Shown piece after piece: positions 12,022-42,534 of a stretch of DNA of 42,534 nucleotides (the first letter of the stretch is position 1; each line of letters begins with the position of its first letter). This DNA is from a virus. The translations under genes and the position numbers were made by a program. Below the pieces are notes generated by a model. The model was not told the DNA's origin. It did no database searches and worked only from the letters and a program-made list of their open reading frames with translations. Location of the stretch: positions 1 through 42,534 of the IMG/VR virus record IMGVR_UViG_3300017971_000443. One strand, 5' to 3'.

Positions 12022-12269
12022 TATTTCTTATTCCTCATCAAGCCTTCTAATTTTCTCAAATTAAACCACTTCTTCTTCTCATCTCCAGAGCCCCAACACC
12101 GATCACAGATCCCCTTGGTCATCATTTGACCCCCAATTCCTCCTGCCCACATAGAAGTACTAGGATAAGTATACACCCCATACCCATTACATTTTTTACA
12201 TACCTTCTCTATCCCTCTCCGCTCTAGCATATGCTCCCAGAATTCTTCTCCCGTTTCTTGACTTTTCAT
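12021..12269 (-). CDS. DnaJ-type zinc-finger protein
   Basis: The 82-residue product has two C-x2-C-x-G-x-G knuckles, CKKCNGYG (about residues 24-31) and CDRCWGSG (about 55-62), which together form a DnaJ-like cysteine-rich zinc domain. There is no J domain, so it is not a co-chaperone as such. It overlaps the primase-helicase stop as ATGA, so it is probably co-translated with it and may act in its complex. Confidence 0.75.
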   Translation of the reverse strand: MKSQETGEEFWEHMLERRGIEKVCKKCNGYGVYTYPSTSMWAGGIGGQMMTKGICDRCWGSGDEKKKWFNLRKLEGLMRNKK

Positions 12270-14893
12270 CCTTCCGCCTTTCTAATAAACTCCCTCATTT
12301 CCTTCATCCGCTCCCCCCCTAAGAGCCTTACCAAGTTCCCATGAGAGTACCCTTGTCTTTCCGCTTCCTCCTGCAATAGCTTCAGGTCCAACTCCCTCCA
12401 TACCAAGTTCTCGGACTTCCCCCCTCCTACTAACGGCATTCTCTTCTTAATCGGCTCTGAGGCTACCAAAGAACTCAAAGCCTTTCGGACTGCCTCTTGG
12501 CTAAACTTCGTGGAGGGGAATTGCATCCTAAGCGCCTCCATCACTCCCGAATTGGTCATATAAACCTTTCCGGAACCGTCATCGATGGACAATCCTCGGC
12601 TAACTGGACTCTCCATCTCTAGTAGATTTATAATAGCCTCAACCAATTTAGGGGCGATTCCAGCACGTACCTTCATCTCTTTAATTAGGCTACTATTCAT
12701 TGGGCCTTCAACCAAAAATCTACTTCCTGGCGGATATTCATGTCTTTTAACAGTATACATCCACATTAAGTGTTTGGCAACTATAAAATCACTTTTTTGT
12801 CCAGCATCCCCGCCTACCCATCTTCTTCCCGGCTTCCCCGTATAGGATAACCCCCCTAACGCCTTTAGATAATGCGCGGCCTCGGCTTGGGCTTTTAAGT
12901 GGATGAGCCTCTGCGATAGAGCCTCTTGGTCGTCCAGGGTGAGTTCCCGATAGAGAAAAATTTGCCGTATGGCATCAAAATTATTGGATGTAAAAATAAC
13001 CCGGAGCGGGTTTCTGATTTTGATCCTATCTTTGAATTTCGGCTCAACCTCAATTTCATCCCCTCCCGTTAATCTTCTAAATGTGTCTGCAATGTCTATA
13101 CCGTTCACTCTACCTTTCGGTAATCCCTCGTTTACGACTACAAAACATGTCTTTAATAGGTTATTGTTAAACTTCTCAAAGTCCTTGCCTGTAGCATGGA
13201 CCCCCGTATCCAGGCATTCCTCCAGCCCTCGAACCAGCATCTTCTTCCCGCAACTGGCGGCTCCTGCTAGACTTAGAGCGGCTATTGGGCCTTCCATGAA
13301 GTTCAAGGAGTGAGCCAACCAAGATTCTAATAGATACCAATCCTCCGGTTTGACTAGCTTTTGTAGCCATAGGTCTACTTCGTCTGAGTATTTAGGTTCT
13401 AGGTCTTTTCGAAGTTTATACATATTGATTACCAAAGATGCGTTCGCCCCATCGATGTCTTTAATCGTATACCCATCTGCCGCTAGAGAACCGAACAACT
13501 CCCGCACCTTCGTACCATGATGTTTTAGCATGGTAGCTGCGGGAATCTGTTTAACCCCCTTCTCTGTAGTGATTTCTGTTTGTATGATATCATCCATCTC
13601 TTGTCGTTTGATGATAGCGGGAAGCTCGATAGTCTTATTGGTGGAGGAGGGATGGTAAAAACCGTTCTCCTGCATGATGTAGTAATCGGTAGCAGTCATA
13701 CAGATAGCGTGTTCTAAGGCGAATTGCCTACGCTCCCAGGCTGTATCAGAGTGGATAGCAGGATGGTCGCACCATTTTTGCATATTTGATACTATTCTAT
13801 CAATCTTCGAGTCTACCTTTATCTTATCCCGCTCTGATTTCGCCTCCTCTTTGGCGTAATATTTTAGTACGGCACTCCATAGGGTTTCCGTCCAGTCGGG
13901 GTGCTGTACGTCCGGTGTAAGGAAGCTAACAGAGCCGAAAAGGAGGGCGTAGATCCCTTCTGGCGAATAGCTGGATATACCGCTAAGGAGCCTAGAAATT
14001 TGTCCTGCATATCTCTGGATTGTTTGATCTCGCTCTCCTTCCTCTCCGATTGGTTGGTCTTTGAAGACTGCATCATAACATTCCCTTCCTTGTAGTAAAA
14101 ACTTAGCGGCCTTAAACCACTTGGTACTAATCTTGCGTCCTGTCTCGGATTGAGTCCATAGTATTGCCTCTACCTCCTCTGGTGTAGGTTTGGGCACATC
14201 TGGTATAACATAAGGTATAACTTCCTCTGGGTTTTTTGTGACTCCTGCGGCTGGAAAACTTTCCGGATCTAGTCGATTTTCGACATTTTCTTGGAAGAAG
14301 TAAAAGGGGTCTTCCCAGGTCCGCTCCCCTCCGCGAGTCACTTGCGGGAGTCTAAATACTCTCGTCCAGTCCCATAATCCATCGTCTACCACTATCCACT
14401 TAGGCATCTCTGTTTTGAATAACCGTAGGAGTCCTCGCATCATAGGTTCCGATTCCGTAACCTTAACAGGTCTGGTAAGAGCCCATATTAGCCTAGCTCC
14501 ATGACGAGTCGTATAGAAGTAAGTCGGCTCTGGGATGGGGAAAGAGTCTTTCGGTTTAGCAAAGAGCGTATCGAGAGCATAGAGGAAGTTCTCTAGTAAG
14601 TTCTCGGTCCACTTCGTATGTCCAGGCGTATCGATATCTATAGCGAATACGTCTATCTCCGGTATATGATTAGGGACGAGGGCAGGTAGTATTTCCTTTG
14701 TAAGGATAGGGCCTACCTGCCCTTTGGGGTGTCTATGAGCGAAGAAGTGAGCATCACACTTCCATCGAGTATGCAGAGCTTTCGCTAGGGAGTATACAGG
14801 CCAAGCGTATATCCTCCTAGGATCTTCTTTTAAGTTCAGTCCTTTAGCGCGGGAGGGAGTCTGGCTATTCGTTATTCCGATTCGTGGTTTGAT
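12266..14893 (-). CDS. AEP primase fused to SF3/D5-like helicase, apparent ATC start
   Basis: The 875-residue product joins an archaeo-eukaryotic-type primase to a D5/SF3-like helicase. Motif I is FAIDIDTPG, motif II lies in TTRHGARLIWAL and motif III in WIVVDDGLWDW. The helicase part has a Walker A-like GAASCGKK (about 544-551, with lysine where Ser/Thr is usual) and Walker B VVVNEG (about 585-590). The first ATG in frame (14443) lies between motifs II and III, so a start there would destroy the primase. The frame is open back to the TAG at 14905-14903. Between them there is no ATG, GTG or TTG. An AGGAG at 14904-14900 lies six bases before an ATC (14893-14891), which I take as the start. Amber read-through of the preceding gene, which is in the same frame, is an alternative. 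Confidence 0.85.
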   Translation of the reverse strand: MKPRIGITNSQTPSRAKGLNLKEDPRRIYAWPVYSLAKALHTRWKCDAHFFAHRHPKGQVGPILTKEILPALVPNHIPEIDVFAIDIDTPGHTKWTENLLENFLYALDTLFAKPKDSFPIPEPTYFYTTRHGARLIWALTRPVKVTESEPMMRGLLRLFKTEMPKWIVVDDGLWDWTRVFRLPQVTRGGERTWEDPFYFFQENVENRLDPESFPAAGVTKNPEEVIPYVIPDVPKPTPEEVEAILWTQSETGRKISTKWFKAAKFLLQGRECYDAVFKDQPIGEEGERDQTIQRYAGQISRLLSGISSYSPEGIYALLFGSVSFLTPDVQHPDWTETLWSAVLKYYAKEEAKSERDKIKVDSKIDRIVSNMQKWCDHPAIHSDTAWERRQFALEHAICMTATDYYIMQENGFYHPSSTNKTIELPAIIKRQEMDDIIQTEITTEKGVKQIPAATMLKHHGTKVRELFGSLAADGYTIKDIDGANASLVINMYKLRKDLEPKYSDEVDLWLQKLVKPEDWYLLESWLAHSLNFMEGPIAALSLAGAASCGKKMLVRGLEECLDTGVHATGKDFEKFNNNLLKTCFVVVNEGLPKGRVNGIDIADTFRRLTGGDEIEVEPKFKDRIKIRNPLRVIFTSNNFDAIRQIFLYRELTLDDQEALSQRLIHLKAQAEAAHYLKALGGLSYTGKPGRRWVGGDAGQKSDFIVAKHLMWMYTVKRHEYPPGSRFLVEGPMNSSLIKEMKVRAGIAPKLVEAIINLLEMESPVSRGLSIDDGSGKVYMTNSGVMEALRMQFPSTKFSQEAVRKALSSLVASEPIKKRMPLVGGGKSENLVWRELDLKLLQEEAERQGYSHGNLVRLLGGERMKEMREFIRKAEG

Positions 14894-14902
14894 CTTAGTC
14901 TC

Positions 14903-15070
14903 CTATATATTATCTTTCGCGCCTTCTTCGTATCCTCTTGCGTATCCTTTTTCGTATCCTTCTTTCAGTGCGGCCTTTATAAGAATATCGTAATTCGTAA
15001 TGGCCAGATTTTCGTCTTTGAATTCGTCAAACCAAATATCTATCCAATCTTTACCTAGTAAGTATTTCAT
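14903..15070 (-). CDS. Small cargo protein of the cassette array, G-Y-rich tail
   Basis: The 55-residue product MKYLLGKDWIDIWFDEF ends in KEGYEKGYARGYEEG. The open frame reaches upstream to 15166, but that part is the shadow of the zinc-ribbon gene in another frame, so I start at the ATG 15070. The glycine-tyrosine tail resembles that of the cargo gene at 15267-15488. Its TAG overlaps the Shine-Dalgarno of the primase-helicase. Confidence 0.55.
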   Translation of the reverse strand: MKYLLGKDWIDIWFDEFKDENLAITNYDILIKAALKEGYEKGYARGYEEGAKDNI

Positions 15071-15096
15071 ATTTGTAAATCCTATTTGCCATTTTT

Positions 15097-15267
15097 CTAG
15101 TCCTCTTCTGTTTCTGATACCTTCTTCCCAGTCCTTAGTTTGTAGTCCCTCTTCGTAGAATCCCACTGTGAGGCACCGAAGACTCTACATCTCCAGCATA
15201 GGGGCTTGTAGGAGTCTCTCCCGCACCCCTCACAGCAATAGATTTTACGTTTACGCTTCTTAGTCAT
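15097..15267 (-). CDS. Zinc-ribbon protein, array copy A
   Basis: A 56-residue protein begins MTKKRKRKIYCCEGCGRDSY and ends TGKKVSETEED. Cysteines C12, C15, C24 and C27 (CEGC and CWRC) form a compact zinc ribbon after a strongly basic N-terminus, which suggests nucleic-acid binding. Its ATG overlaps the preceding stop as TAATG. It differs from copy C by only about eight bases in 171, with one amino-acid change (S/T), so purifying selection or recent duplication is likely. Confidence 0.8.
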   Translation of the reverse strand: MTKKRKRKIYCCEGCGRDSYKPLCWRCRVFGASQWDSTKRDYKLRTGKKVSETEED

Positions 15268-15488
15268 TACTCTAGCTTCTTCTCTTCCCTATTATATGCT
15301 TCTCCTAACCAAAAGCCATATCGATACCCCGCTTCAAATCCATATCCTATCCCCCTCTCTTCTCTTTTTTCTATAATCTCTAATATAATGTTTCTTAACT
15401 CATCATTTACGTCTTCTGGCAAATACCAATCTAAAATTTCTTCATGTTCTTTCTTTATTTTTTTATAATCAACAAAAACCTTAACCAT
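15267..15488 (-). CDS. Small cargo protein of the cassette array
   Basis: A 73-residue product (MVKVFVDYKKIKKEHEEI) with a helical middle and an aromatic glycine-rich C-terminus (GIGYGFEAGYRYGFWLGEA). A TTG further upstream is in frame but overlaps the remnant of the zinc-ribbon copy, so I start at the ATG 15488, which follows GAGGACTAGAAAA as in the other cassettes. The stop overlaps the next zinc-ribbon start (TAATG). Confidence 0.6.
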   Translation of the reverse strand: MVKVFVDYKKIKKEHEEILDWYLPEDVNDELRNIILEIIEKREERGIGYGFEAGYRYGFWLGEAYNREEKKLE

Positions 15489-15529: not shown

Positions 15530-15610
15530 CTATCCGCTACTAAAGGGTTTGTAGGAGTCCCTCCCACACCCCTCACAGCAATAGATTTTACGTTTACGCT
15601 TCTTAGTCAT
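15530..15610 (-). pseudogene. Truncated zinc-ribbon gene, array copy B
   Basis: The first 22 codons match copies A and C (to SYKP), then the sequence diverges and stops at TAG after 26 codons, losing the second cysteine pair. The shared ending (GAAGAGGACTAG, encoding EED and stop in the intact copies) reappears at 15491-15502. An internal segment has therefore been deleted or replaced. It still provides the start/stop coupling between its neighbours. Confidence 0.75.
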
Positions 15611-15813
15611 TACTCTTCAGCTTCAAAAGACATGCAATGTGCCCCTATTCCAGCTATTGCATCATACCCATTATGTATAAACGTATGAAAAAAAGCATTA
15701 TCACCATCAAACAACCATTCTTTTTCTACTTTCGCAAAGTACTTATATATCTTATTAAATAAATAACAAGTATCTATATGTTTACAATCAGTACAGGTTT
15801 CTTCTTTACCCAT
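15610..15813 (-). CDS. Cysteine-rich cargo protein of the cassette array
   Basis: A 67-residue product (MGKEETCTDCKHIDTCYLF) with CTDC, a third cysteine six residues on and a fourth near the end (AHCMSF), so a probable zinc site. It is a distant paralog of the protein at 475-678, sharing cysteine order, the CYL motif and an internal FF. I use the ATG at 15813, two bases after the zinc-ribbon copy C stop, rather than the upstream in-frame codon that lies inside that gene. Confidence 0.7.
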   Translation of the reverse strand: MGKEETCTDCKHIDTCYLFNKIYKYFAKVEKEWLFDGDNAFFHTFIHNGYDAIAGIGAHCMSFEAEE

Positions 15814-15815
15814 TT

Positions 15816-15986
15816 TTAGTCCTCTTCTGTTTCTGTTACCTTCTTCCCAGTCCGTAGTTTGTAGTCCCTCTTCGTAGAATCCCACTGTGAGGCACCAAAG
15901 ACTCTACATCTCCAGCATAGGGGCTTGTAAGAATCTCTCCCACACCCCTCACAGCAATAGATTTTACGTTTACGTTTCTTAGTCAT
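15816..15986 (-). CDS. Zinc-ribbon protein, array copy C
   Basis: A 56-residue protein nearly identical to copy A, with the same basic N-terminus and CEGC/CWRC pairs, and threonine for serine near the C-terminus. Its stop is TAA where copy A has TAG. The start overlaps the upstream gene by eight bases. The GAGGA at its 3' end acts as Shine-Dalgarno for the following cargo gene. Confidence 0.8.
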   Translation of the reverse strand: MTKKRKRKIYCCEGCGRDSYKPLCWRCRVFGASQWDSTKRDYKLRTGKKVTETEED

Positions 15987-16215
15987 TACTCTTCAGCTTA
16001 ATCGGCTTATCCTTGGACGAGTTGCAAAACTTTGGGGTTATCGATTTAACAGAAATTTTAGTATTAGGAAGACTATGCTGAGATCTTAATCTTGGTATCC
16101 ATTTTAAAATACTAGACAAAGAAGAAACCCGTATTGTAATATGACTACTTAAATCTGCATTAGGGGGAGCATATTCCCTAAAAAATATCGTTTCGTGCAT
16201 CCATATCTGTTCCAT
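15979..16215 (-). CDS. Hypothetical protein at head of cassette array
   Basis: A 78-residue product with alternating hydrophobic residues suggesting beta strands (HITIRVSSLSSILKWI, TKISVKSITPKF). Its ATG overlaps the FmdB-type gene stop as TAATG, and its last codons run eight bases into zinc-ribbon copy C, so the end looks like a recombination seam. No family recognised. Confidence 0.6.
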   Translation of the reverse strand: MEQIWMHETIFFREYAPPNADLSSHITIRVSSLSSILKWIPRLRSQHSLPNTKISVKSITPKFCNSSKDKPIKLKSND

Positions 16216-18466: not shown

Positions 18467-19180
18467 TTATATAGATATCTTTATGTCTTTCTCTTTACAT
18501 AAGGCTCTAAAGAGCTGTTTATGGTTTAGTTTTGGCTTCCCTGGTTTCCATATCTTGTAGTCTTCGTTGAAAAAGAATTCCCGTTCTGCGTTTTCAAATG
18601 GGCGAGTGGCTTTGTGTGTGATACTTTGTTCGTCTAATTTGGATTCCCTTGCCCATTTATTCATTGCGGGGATGCCCACAGATACAGCATCCCATCTCAT
18701 AAGTTCTAGGGTTAATTTATCAGAGACTCTACCCCAATAAAAGCGTAAGAGATTAAGGATAGCATATTTCGCGCCTCTGAGGTCTGCGCCTCTGAGGTAT
18801 GCGCCTGTGAGGTATGCGCCTCTGAGGTCTGCGCCTCTGAGGTCTGCGTCTCTGAGGTCTGCGTCTCTGAGGTATGCGTCTCTGAGGTATGCGTCTCTGA
18901 GGTATGCGCCTGTGAGATATGCGCCTCTGAGGTCTGCGTCTCTGAGGTATGCGCCTCTGAGGTATGCGCCTCTGAGGTCTGCGCCTCTGAGGTCTGCGTC
19001 TCTGAGGTCTGCGCCTGTGAGATATGCGCCTCTGAGGTCTGCGCCTGTGAGGTCTGCGTCTCTGAGGTCTGCGCCTCTGAGGTCTGCGCCTGTGAGGTCT
19101 GCGTCTCTGAGGTCTGCGCCTCTGAGGTATGCGCCTCTGAGGTCTGCGTTCGGTTTAATTTCATACCCATTTACTTTCAT
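18467..19180 (-). CDS. Pentapeptide-repeat protein
   Basis: After MKVNGYEIKPN the 237-residue product has about 25 uninterrupted A(D/Y)L(R/T)(G/D) pentapeptides, then a roughly 100-residue unique C-terminal domain (FYWGRVSDKLTLELM to the end). Pentapeptide repeats fold as a right-handed quadrilateral beta-helix. Members such as Qnr and MfpA bind gyrase as DNA mimics, but most phage members have no known target. AGGAG seven bases before the ATG supports the start. It is the first gene leftward of the control region. Confidence 0.9.
   Translation of the reverse strand: MKVNGYEIKPNADLRGAYLRGADLRDADLTGADLRGADLRDADLTGADLRGAYLTGADLRDADLRGADLRGAYLRGAYLRDADLRGAYLTGAYLRDAYLRDAYLRDADLRDADLRGADLRGAYLTGAYLRGADLRGAKYAILNLLRFYWGRVSDKLTLELMRWDAVSVGIPAMNKWARESKLDEQSITHKATRPFENAEREFFFNEDYKIWKPGKPKLNHKQLFRALCKEKDIKISI
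18774..19148. repeat. 15-bp tandem repeat array inside the pentapeptide gene
   Basis: About 25 direct copies of a 15-bp unit (tctgaggtctgcgcc on the plus strand) vary at only three positions, each giving D/Y, R/T or G/D. The DNA is far more uniform than the protein requires, which points to recent expansion or homogenisation. The repeat leaves frames open on both strands. Confidence 0.95.
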
Positions 19181-38948: not shown

Positions 38949-41900
38949 TTAAGTTACTCCTAATGCGCTTTTTATTTCTGGCCCCCAATCTTTAAATCTT
39001 CTAAGGAGTGCGCCTTTTCCGCCGAAGAGAAGGGTATCCATCGTGTCTTCATTTGCTACAATCGCGGGTTGTACAAAAGTCCTAGAGGAGGAAGTCTGTT
39101 GTCCTGTCCTTTGTTCTGCCTGATTAGCAGACATAGCACTGGAAGTAAAGCCTCCTTGATTAAAACTAGGTTGTGTAGGACTTGCTATCCTAGAGGAGCG
39201 AGAAGAGACGTTTGCTAAGGCATTTAGCCCCATTGGGTCTATTGACCCATCTATAATACGAGATATTGCGGTTTTCCCGTATTGCATTACTCGATTAACG
39301 GGTATAATGCCCTCTCCTGGAGCCAGCCAAGCGGGGATAGTATCTTTAGGATGAATCCAAGAAGGTTTGGAGATTCCCCCAGAAGCAAAACCTCTAGCGT
39401 GAGGTCCAAAGTGAGCAAAGCCTCCTCTGTTGAATCCAGAAGCTCCAGCGAATCCTCCATCGTTAAAGCCCAAGAGCCCTGGGAAGAGTCCTATCGTTGC
39501 TTTAGCGAGAGCTACTCTAGTTAATTGTTGGATAATCATATTGCCAATTCCTCTTAGAAAATTGGCGAAGTTCTCTCGAATCCCTTTCCCATTAGGGTCA
39601 AGGGAGTCTGTAATCGCAGTCGAGAGGAAGTCAGCGAATCCTTCCATTGAGGATTGCATGATAGCGACTCCAGCTTCGAAAGAGCTTTGGAAGTCAGTAA
39701 CGAAGTACTCAGCCGCTTGTTCAAAGCCCCCTATAAGCCCCCTAGAGATTCTAGCTTCGAGTCGTTTAGCTTGGGCTTCTTGCTCTTTCAGGAGTTCAGT
39801 TTGAAGTCCTAATTCTGCGGCTCTTTGTGCCTCTAAAGCGTTTATCCCCTCTAGTATCTGTTCGGATTCTTCAAGAGATGTGGCGTGGGCTAAGGCTATT
39901 TCTTGGGCTCTTATCTCTCTATCAAATCGTTCATTGATTAGAGAGATTTCGTGTCGTATTTCGTCAGCCCTATTCTTGGCCGTAACCAAATCTAATTGAG
40001 AGACAGAAGCTCCTTCGGAGTAAGCTTTATTAAGTCTTTGCTGATTGGTTACCTGAATCGCAAGCTCTTGAGTAGCAATTCGGTTTTCTTCTATCCTACG
40101 GTCTCTAGCGACTTGGGCTCTGGCTTTGGCTAAGTCTAAGATAGCTTTGGACACATCTTTTTCAGCATTTTGGATAGCAAGAAGTTTTTCTCGTTCTCCT
40201 TTAAGTTGTCCTACAATAGGTAGAAGCTGTTGAGCGAGATTCGCTGTTTTTGGGTCTACAAAGCGAAGCCCTACAGCAATGGCTTGCAATTCGGTTTGCA
40301 ATTGCTCTTTCGCTGTTTTTGCAGAAGCTACTTTATTTCTAAGTCTATCTGCTTCTGCTTTATCTCCTTTATCCTCTGCGGCTGATATTTCTTTAGTAAG
40401 GAGGAGTATCTCATCTTCTACAGCTTTAGTCTCTTTTTGGGCTTTTATACGTTCTTGGTGTATAGCCAAGACTTGATTCAATTCTGCACGTTCTTTAGCA
40501 GAAAGATTGATTACCTTTTCTTGATATTCAGAACCTCGTTTAATTAAATTGGATATAGTTTGCCTAGTCCCAATTATGTCTTTCTGAGTTTGTTGAAGAC
40601 TTTGATGAATTTCCCCTCTAGCCTTAATGAGGATTTGGAGTTCTTCTCCTCCTACTCCCGCGAGAGAGGTCTCTAGTCCAGAAGTTACTTGAAAAGCTTT
40701 TAGCTTTTTCTGAGCATCCGTAATAACTTTTTCGGTTTCTTTAAAGGCATCTGTAGCAGAAGAGATAAGGACAGGAGATTTATTAAGCTCTTCGTTCAGC
40801 TCTTTAAGCCGTTTGTCTTGTTCTTTTGCTTCAAATTTTCTTCGTTGTTCTCTATCTCTAGCAGTTTCTATAAGGGCAAGTTGTTTTCCGTATTCTTCTT
40901 TTTGTCTCTCTATAGCATCAGAGATATCCTTAAGGGCTTTTTTTCTCAAAGGTGCGGCTCCAGGAGTAACATAAGTTGCCGCTACTTTGGCCGCTAATAT
41001 AGCTAATTCTGCTCTTTGCTTTAGTAGTGTGGTTTGAAGTTGGGTTGTCTGTGCTAAAGTTATTTCTGAGGTTTCGGCAGTATTTTGTAAAATAATTTTA
41101 GAAAGCTGAGCCGCAACAAAAAAAGCTCCAGTGAATCCTACTTTTAATAATCCTACTTTTGAGTTTATGTTCCCAAAAACTAAATTTAGGGCCTTGAAGG
41201 TAAATAAGATTTCTACAGCACTAGCTACTATATCTCGCAATTCAGAAGCCGGAAGTTTTCCAGTTATGCCTGTAAGTAATTGGAATATATTTTTAAATAT
41301 TCCAATTATGTTATTTCCAGCTTCTACGATTCCTTGTAGGATTCCTAAGACTATCGTGAGCCCCGTTCCTAGTGCTTCTCCGAAAAATTCAGCAATAGTT
41401 TCAAAAGTGCTTCCTCCGCTAAGAGTAGCTATCATCTCTTTAGCTTGAGCAAGTCCTACTCGTAAGCCATCGAAAATGAACTTGAAAGATTTTACAGCTT
41501 TTTCATTAGGAGTAATAAAATCGCCCTTGACTTCCGTAAAAGCCCCGAAGACGGTTTCAAGTTCCCCCTTCAACTCATCGAAGAGTCCTTTACCTGCGGC
41601 TCCCAGGACTCCACGAAAAGCATCTCGGACCCTAGCAACTAATCCGGAGAAAGATTTAGCTGTCTTAGCAGAAGCTTCCTCAAAGGCGGAAAACTTCTCT
41701 GTAAGGAATTCCCCTAGCCTACCCGCCTCTTTCATTCTGCGGATATCAGCGTTCGTGATTCCGAGACTTACAGCAATTCGAGTAGTCCTAGCTTGAATCG
41801 TACCTGCTAGGATAGAACGAATCTCTTCTGCTAGTTGATTCTGAGAGAGCCCAATTGCAGCCGCCGCTTGCGAAATACGTAGGGTAAATCTGCGAATCTC

Positions 41901-42534
41901 ATTTACATCTAGCCCCGCCTGAACCCCAGGAGCTAAACCAACCTGGAAGGTCTCTAACAGTTCCTCGAAGGTTGCTGTAGTCGTTAGAGCATCTTTACGG
42001 AGGAGTTGAACCTGTTTACGCGCTTCTGCTTGTGCGAGGATGAACCGTTCGGAGATATCTACAGTCTCTCCCATCTCCCCTCGCAAATCTCCTACGGCAA
42101 GGAGCAAAGACGCAACTCCAAGATTAGCTTGCTCTAAGCGCCTATTGAAGTCTAGGGAGGAGCGTACTAGGTCTTTAAAGCCTTGAATGGCTACTCTAGC
42201 AGCAGCAAAGGCGGCTAGAATTCCAAACAATCGCCTGAAAGTAAAGGAGATTCGATTTGCGTTCTCTCCAGACTTTTTCAATTCGGCATTGGTAAAGTTA
42301 AGGAAGCGCCTAAAGATTCCTATCTTTTTGGATCCATCGGCTACCGTTTTTCCAAATTTTTGTATGGATTGCGTTTGCTTTCTTCTTAACCCAAGATTTT
42401 GTTTTGTGGTTCTTTGAGAATCTTTTAATATCTCTGCTTCTTTTTTTAAGTTTTTGGCTGTTTCTTTTGAAGCTAATGCTCTTTCCTTTTCTTCTTTAGC
42501 AAGGGACTTAGCCGCCGCTTTTAACAATTCTGCG
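38949..42534 (-). CDS. Tape-measure protein, 5' end outside window
   Basis: About 1194 residues are visible and the frame is still open at the right edge, so the true start lies outside; a TTG at 42527 is probably internal. The sequence is helical with long coiled coils (about residues 560-930), several hydrophobic segments in the first half, and a typical tape-measure C-terminus (GGFAHFGPHARGFASGGI, then TIPAWLAPGEGIIPVNR). It sets tail length and is ejected with DNA. The visible length implies a tail of well over 150 nm if the usual length rule holds. Confidence 0.92.
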   Translation of the reverse strand, partial: AELLKAAAKSLAKEEKERALASKETAKNLKKEAEILKDSQRTTKQNLGLRRKQTQSIQKFGKTVADGSKKIGIFRRFLNFTNAELKKSGENANRISFTFRRLFGILAAFAAARVAIQGFKDLVRSSLDFNRRLEQANLGVASLLLAVGDLRGEMGETVDISERFILAQAEARKQVQLLRKDALTTTATFEELLETFQVGLAPGVQAGLDVNEIRRFTLRISQAAAAIGLSQNQLAEEIRSILAGTIQARTTRIAVSLGITNADIRRMKEAGRLGEFLTEKFSAFEEASAKTAKSFSGLVARVRDAFRGVLGAAGKGLFDELKGELETVFGAFTEVKGDFITPNEKAVKSFKFIFDGLRVGLAQAKEMIATLSGGSTFETIAEFFGEALGTGLTIVLGILQGIVEAGNNIIGIFKNIFQLLTGITGKLPASELRDIVASAVEILFTFKALNLVFGNINSKVGLLKVGFTGAFFVAAQLSKIILQNTAETSEITLAQTTQLQTTLLKQRAELAILAAKVAATYVTPGAAPLRKKALKDISDAIERQKEEYGKQLALIETARDREQRRKFEAKEQDKRLKELNEELNKSPVLISSATDAFKETEKVITDAQKKLKAFQVTSGLETSLAGVGGEELQILIKARGEIHQSLQQTQKDIIGTRQTISNLIKRGSEYQEKVINLSAKERAELNQVLAIHQERIKAQKETKAVEDEILLLTKEISAAEDKGDKAEADRLRNKVASAKTAKEQLQTELQAIAVGLRFVDPKTANLAQQLLPIVGQLKGEREKLLAIQNAEKDVSKAILDLAKARAQVARDRRIEENRIATQELAIQVTNQQRLNKAYSEGASVSQLDLVTAKNRADEIRHEISLINERFDREIRAQEIALAHATSLEESEQILEGINALEAQRAAELGLQTELLKEQEAQAKRLEARISRGLIGGFEQAAEYFVTDFQSSFEAGVAIMQSSMEGFADFLSTAITDSLDPNGKGIRENFANFLRGIGNMIIQQLTRVALAKATIGLFPGLLGFNDGGFAGASGFNRGGFAHFGPHARGFASGGISKPSWIHPKDTIPAWLAPGEGIIPVNRVMQYGKTAISRIIDGSIDPMGLNALANVSSRSSRIASPTQPSFNQGGFTSSAMSANQAEQRTGQQTSSSRTFVQPAIVANEDTMDTLLFGGKGALLRRFKDWGPEIKSALGVT

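Follow-up and report, generated by a model that had tools for sequence, protein, structure and literature searches.

The 42,534-bp window analysed here comes from IMG/VR (virus record IMGVR_UViG_3300017971_000443) and belongs to a tailed phage, whose genes include those for a DNA polymerase, a helicase, a terminase and the tail. On its minus strand lies a gene whose predicted product combines an AEP primase with a DUF5906-type helicase (Table 1). The reading frame is open from directly after the TAG at 14905–14903 down to the TGA at 12266, and the 153 codons that precede its first ATG (codons 14902–14444) include no ATG, GTG or TTG, as the initial annotation had reported; its minus-strand coordinates all hold. 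With every start allowed by NCBI table 11 taken into account, the open reading frame runs exactly from the ATC at 14893 to 12266 and encodes 875 amino acids.

Table 1. Features at the start of the primase-helicase gene (window coordinates)
Feature	Position	Strand	Remark
AEP primase + DUF5906-type (SF3-like) helicase gene	12266..14893	-	875 codons from ATC, stop TGA
First in-frame ATG	14441..14443	-	start expected from a standard gene caller
ATC, inferred start codon	14891..14893	-	aligned with start codons of 19 relatives
AGGAG ribosome-binding site	14900..14904	-	overlaps TAG of upstream gene
TAG stop of upstream gene	14903..14905	-	in frame with primase
Small upstream gene, 55 aa	14903..15070	-	ATG 15070; possible termination-reinitiation coupling partner

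In a survey of some 60 ORF-level calls, no other large conserved gene that lies fully within the window lacks a conventional start. The gene at 38949–42527 was not counted as start-less, being cut by the window end. A second record, IMGVR_UViG_3300017963_000605 (G005; L092/L093), is identical to window positions 18978–42534 and extends the virus 6.6 kb past the window end; in this extension the gene acquires its ATG and reaches 1262 aa. The window is therefore only part of the genome. Long ORFs with late canonical starts elsewhere (7 of 275) were set aside as ambiguous (GC-rich contigs and antisense frames). The second record begins inside a tract of tandem 15-base repeats (18771–19149), which makes an assembly break likely at that point; the repeats lie within a 237-aa gene (18467–19180, minus strand) that probably encodes a pentapeptide-repeat protein.

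Profile searches at the usual cut-off assigned the 55-aa product of the small gene before the primase to no family. An ATG is present at 15092, where neighbouring genes start, and the frame that it opens closes after 13 codons. The 55-aa product is read from the ATG at 15070, in a different frame (window 15050–15092, minus strand). The small gene may therefore carry a frameshift. Further upstream, the minus strand carries three copies of a small zinc-ribbon gene cassette (MTKKRKRKIYCCEGCG...), at 15089–15273, 15545–15624 and 15810–15999, with 94–95% DNA identity; the middle copy is truncated, and a different small gene follows each copy.

Coding signal and position of the start

Codons 14902–14444 are real primase coding sequence. 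Codon log-odds trained on this phage's other genes averaged +0.189 per codon in frame over the disputed stretch; the two alternative frames scored -0.154 and -0.066. The remainder of the gene, which is undisputed, has the same signal (+0.184 per codon). It had been claimed that a start at ATG 14443 would forfeit AEP motifs I and II and that a conventional gene caller would consequently report a truncated, primase-dead protein. Both motifs (FAIDIDTPG and TTRHGARLIWAL) do lie upstream of 14443, and initiation there would drop residues 1–150, which contain them. ATG 14443 is the first conventional start, and a product that begins at it would be helicase-only or primase-dead. We find such a product scarcely credible: 19 relatives conserve the 150 upstream codons, whose coding signal is full, the AEP domain would be split mid-way, and the ribosome site is weak (just GGA upstream) and set in a more folded context (-12.9 kcal/mol).

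ATG, GTG and TTG together make up 3.85% of the codons in this phage's genes, and three runs of 151–155 codons without any of them occur among 14 of these genes. Because long runs of this kind are not rare, the loss of one start codon suffices to account for the whole anomaly. Selection for the absence of ATG, GTG and TTG over the 153 codons was considered and rejected, as equal runs exist in the phage's other genes.

The TAG is followed directly by GAG ACT AAG ATC (14902–14891), and only seven codons (GAG ACT AAG ATC AAA CCA CGA) separate it from the conserved strand. Because the next residues (RIG...) form the first AEP strand, common to the 19 relatives, the start must fall within these seven codons, among which ATC is the sole table-11 start codon. 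AGGAG stands where the initial annotation had placed it, with six bases (ACTAAG) between it and ATC 14893. No other near-cognate codon before 14443 has a five-base SD at the usual spacing, and the chance of AGGAG at 5–8 nt is 0.75% per random position. Folding around the ATC is weak (-5.8 kcal/mol for 70 nt), and few of the 14 starts compared lie in a more open context. An SD that overlaps the upstream stop suits re-initiation, and translation of the two genes may be coupled. The DNA and its alignments thus show the start position together with its ribosome site, its open context and an N-terminus homologous to that of the relatives, and we place the start at ATC 14893 with high confidence.

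Around the TAG there is a short AT repeat (ATATATAG) in which a one-base indel could have gone undetected, hiding a conventional start that overlaps the upstream gene. The hidden start would have no properly spaced ribosome site, whereas AGGAG fits ATC 14893, and we give the indel only a slim chance.

Distant relatives and the predicted fold

Phage and plasmid sequences, searched at both the nucleotide and the protein level, yielded no primase relative (one match, at E = 9, was noise); scanning viral contigs for exact peptides and motifs gave none either, nor did a scan of genome contigs. A pattern spanning the start codon with any third base allowed gave zero matches, and the replicative helicase of MW202816 has no similarity to the primase-helicase. 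Relatives were reached through an alignment with distant phage DNA polymerases, which drew 80 viral loci, some of which carry the primase; a primase alignment built from those loci, followed by a second alignment, added further full-length relatives. All 19 relatives obtained are distant (25–34% protein identity where measured), and these searches found no close relative.

For each relative, we counted as the start the canonical codon that best fits the shared N-terminal pattern, which consists of a leader of 1–8 residues, a RIGV/KIAV-type strand, about 25–45 residues, a D-A-H block and the DxD motif. The starts so defined lie 1–8 residues ahead of the first strand and comprise 14 ATG, 3 GTG and 2 TTG codons; none is ATC. 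The window's ATC falls in the same alignment column. The start is forced in some relatives: in L098 an ATG directly follows a TAA, and in L110 an ATG directly follows a TGA and has an AGGAGGT site.

The product is predicted to be an AEP primase-helicase, with a modelled AEP fold that contains the DxD motif and, behind it, a C-terminal DUF5906/SF3 ATPase. Its C-terminal half matches DUF5906 (PF19263, E = 2e-11, above the gathering score), and phrog_1156, DNA primase, is matched at E = 1e-9; the N-terminal part has no Pfam match, and the protein has no sequence match in the PDB. An AlphaFold2 model of residues 1–463, counted from the ATC, has a mean pLDDT of 85.9. In this model the first strand comprises residues 4–8, and AEP structures align from residues 1–4 onward. 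The best structural match is the AEP domain of cyanophage S-2L PrimPol (Z = 9.7 over 148 residues), followed by Prim-PolC, CAPP, LigD polymerase and poxvirus D5; AEP structures fill the top ranks, from Z = 9.7 to 6. Foldseek alone was marginal (best E = 1.5e-3). Residues D86 and D88 of the DxD motif are invariant in 11 sequences. The P-loop, GAASCGKK, departs from the canonical Walker A GxxxxGK[ST]. It ends in GKK in nine of 11 family members (the window, L097–L105, L008 and L094), the exceptions being GKT in L102 and GKG in L103. The GKK P-loop is an ATPase variant that the family shares and has no bearing on the start. The relatives define a family of AEP primase-helicases of which the Pfam and PHROGs profiles recognise only the helicase half.

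The same comparisons bear on whether suppression or read-through of TAG 14905 fuses the 55-aa upstream gene to the primase, since both genes share one frame and a single TAG divides them. The relatives start independently: the in-frame stretch upstream is only 0–30 codons in most of them, and none has a conserved N-terminal extension or a fused upstream domain. TAG terminates several further genes here, a search for tRNA genes found none, and the modelled AEP fold begins right after the ATC. We therefore regard such a fusion as very unlikely, in agreement with the initial annotation, which had discounted recoding because TAG ends other genes.

Proposed initiation at ATC

The initial annotation judged an ATC start best placed, and named a genuine ATC start and a single base error among the explanations. 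Its placement of the start at 14893 is strongly supported by how the 19 relatives begin, by the ribosome site and by the fold; as to the base itself, both a genuine ATC and a miscalled or mutated ATG are still in play. The position may be right and the base wrong, through either a consensus error or assembly of a mutant genotype from a lineage with an ATG start. The relatives point this way, with ATG in 14 of 19 and ATC in none, as does the phage itself, almost all of whose other genes start with ATG at the same spacing and behind an A/G-rich lead-in. The window is, moreover, a single metagenomic record, and the ATC is a private oddity of that record, which counts against its being real. At 25–34% protein identity, however, the relatives are too distant for their codons to prove an error in the window. 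The overlap with IMGVR_UViG_3300017963_000605 (23,557 bp from window position 18978) contains no mismatch, which hints at a low rate of base errors in this sequence; the overlap stops short of the primase gene, and the second record may not be an independent assembly. Taking these points together, we consider a wrong base unlikely, while giving it real weight.

We favour a real but weak ATC start, aided by the strong ribosome site and by coupling to the upstream gene, and put its probability at roughly 0.6; this and our assessments of the competing readings are matters of judgement and were not computed. The full-length AEP primase-helicase would then be translated from ATC 14893. AGGAG, six bases upstream and overlapping the stop codon of the 55-aa gene, would position on the AUC a 30S subunit that either arrives fresh or remains after termination 9 nt upstream. 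The initiator tRNA would pair with the first two bases of the AUC and insert Met, and the weak initiation would yield the enzyme in small amounts. Beyond what the sequence shows, this reading infers a correct base, initiation at AUC, a contribution from coupling and low expression.

Published work offers both encouragement and caution. In S. aureus, AUU and AUA starts behind extended SDs reach about 10% of the AUG level (PMC13009471). An SD makes re-initiation on coupled E. coli genes more frequent (PMC2268962), and a natural E. coli rpoS mutant that starts at ATA continues to yield protein (PMC12864459). Third-base mismatches are disfavoured by IF3 (PMC10158994). The efficiency of ATA is given as up to 1% of that of ATG in the 64-codon survey of Hecht et al. 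(2017), as cited in PMC12864459. Changes from AUG to AUN starts are very rare in bacteria: for 61,358 ancestral AUG starts, one switch to AUU was reported and none to AUC (PMC5622118).

If the ATC is real, a phage replication gene uses one of the rarest start codons. We suggest, tentatively and as the less probable case, that this uncultured phage lineage deliberately keeps its replicative primase-helicase low through initiation at AUC and coupling to the small gene upstream. To our knowledge, such a translational throttle on replication priming has not been described for phages. The locus is also a reminder that gene callers limited to ATG, GTG and TTG would list a primase-dead fragment here, its catalytic half lost.

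The nearest solved AEP fold is that of cyanophage S-2L PrimPol (6zp9), which the predicted fold resembles. Known phage AEP primase-helicases share with this protein the DxD motif I (here DID) and an SF3/DUF5906 helicase behind the AEP domain; the present primase differs in being too far removed for Pfam AEP or PDB sequence matches and in its P-loop, GKK rather than GK[ST]. The coupled E. coli genes studied for re-initiation (PMC2268962) used AUG and engineered starts, whereas coupling is proposed here from the arrangement of the locus; that arrangement is alike, with a stop that overlaps the ribosome site and a start 9 nt after the stop. The AUU and AUA starts of bacterial infC, pcnB, ccpN and cvfC1 (PMC13009471 and references therein) were read experimentally and several are conserved, in contrast to an ATC found in one phage record and unshared. 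The ATC start, well located but unproven, nevertheless appears from its sequence context to be of the same kind as these documented starts: a third-base near-cognate codon behind a strong ribosome site, from which a reduced yield would be expected.
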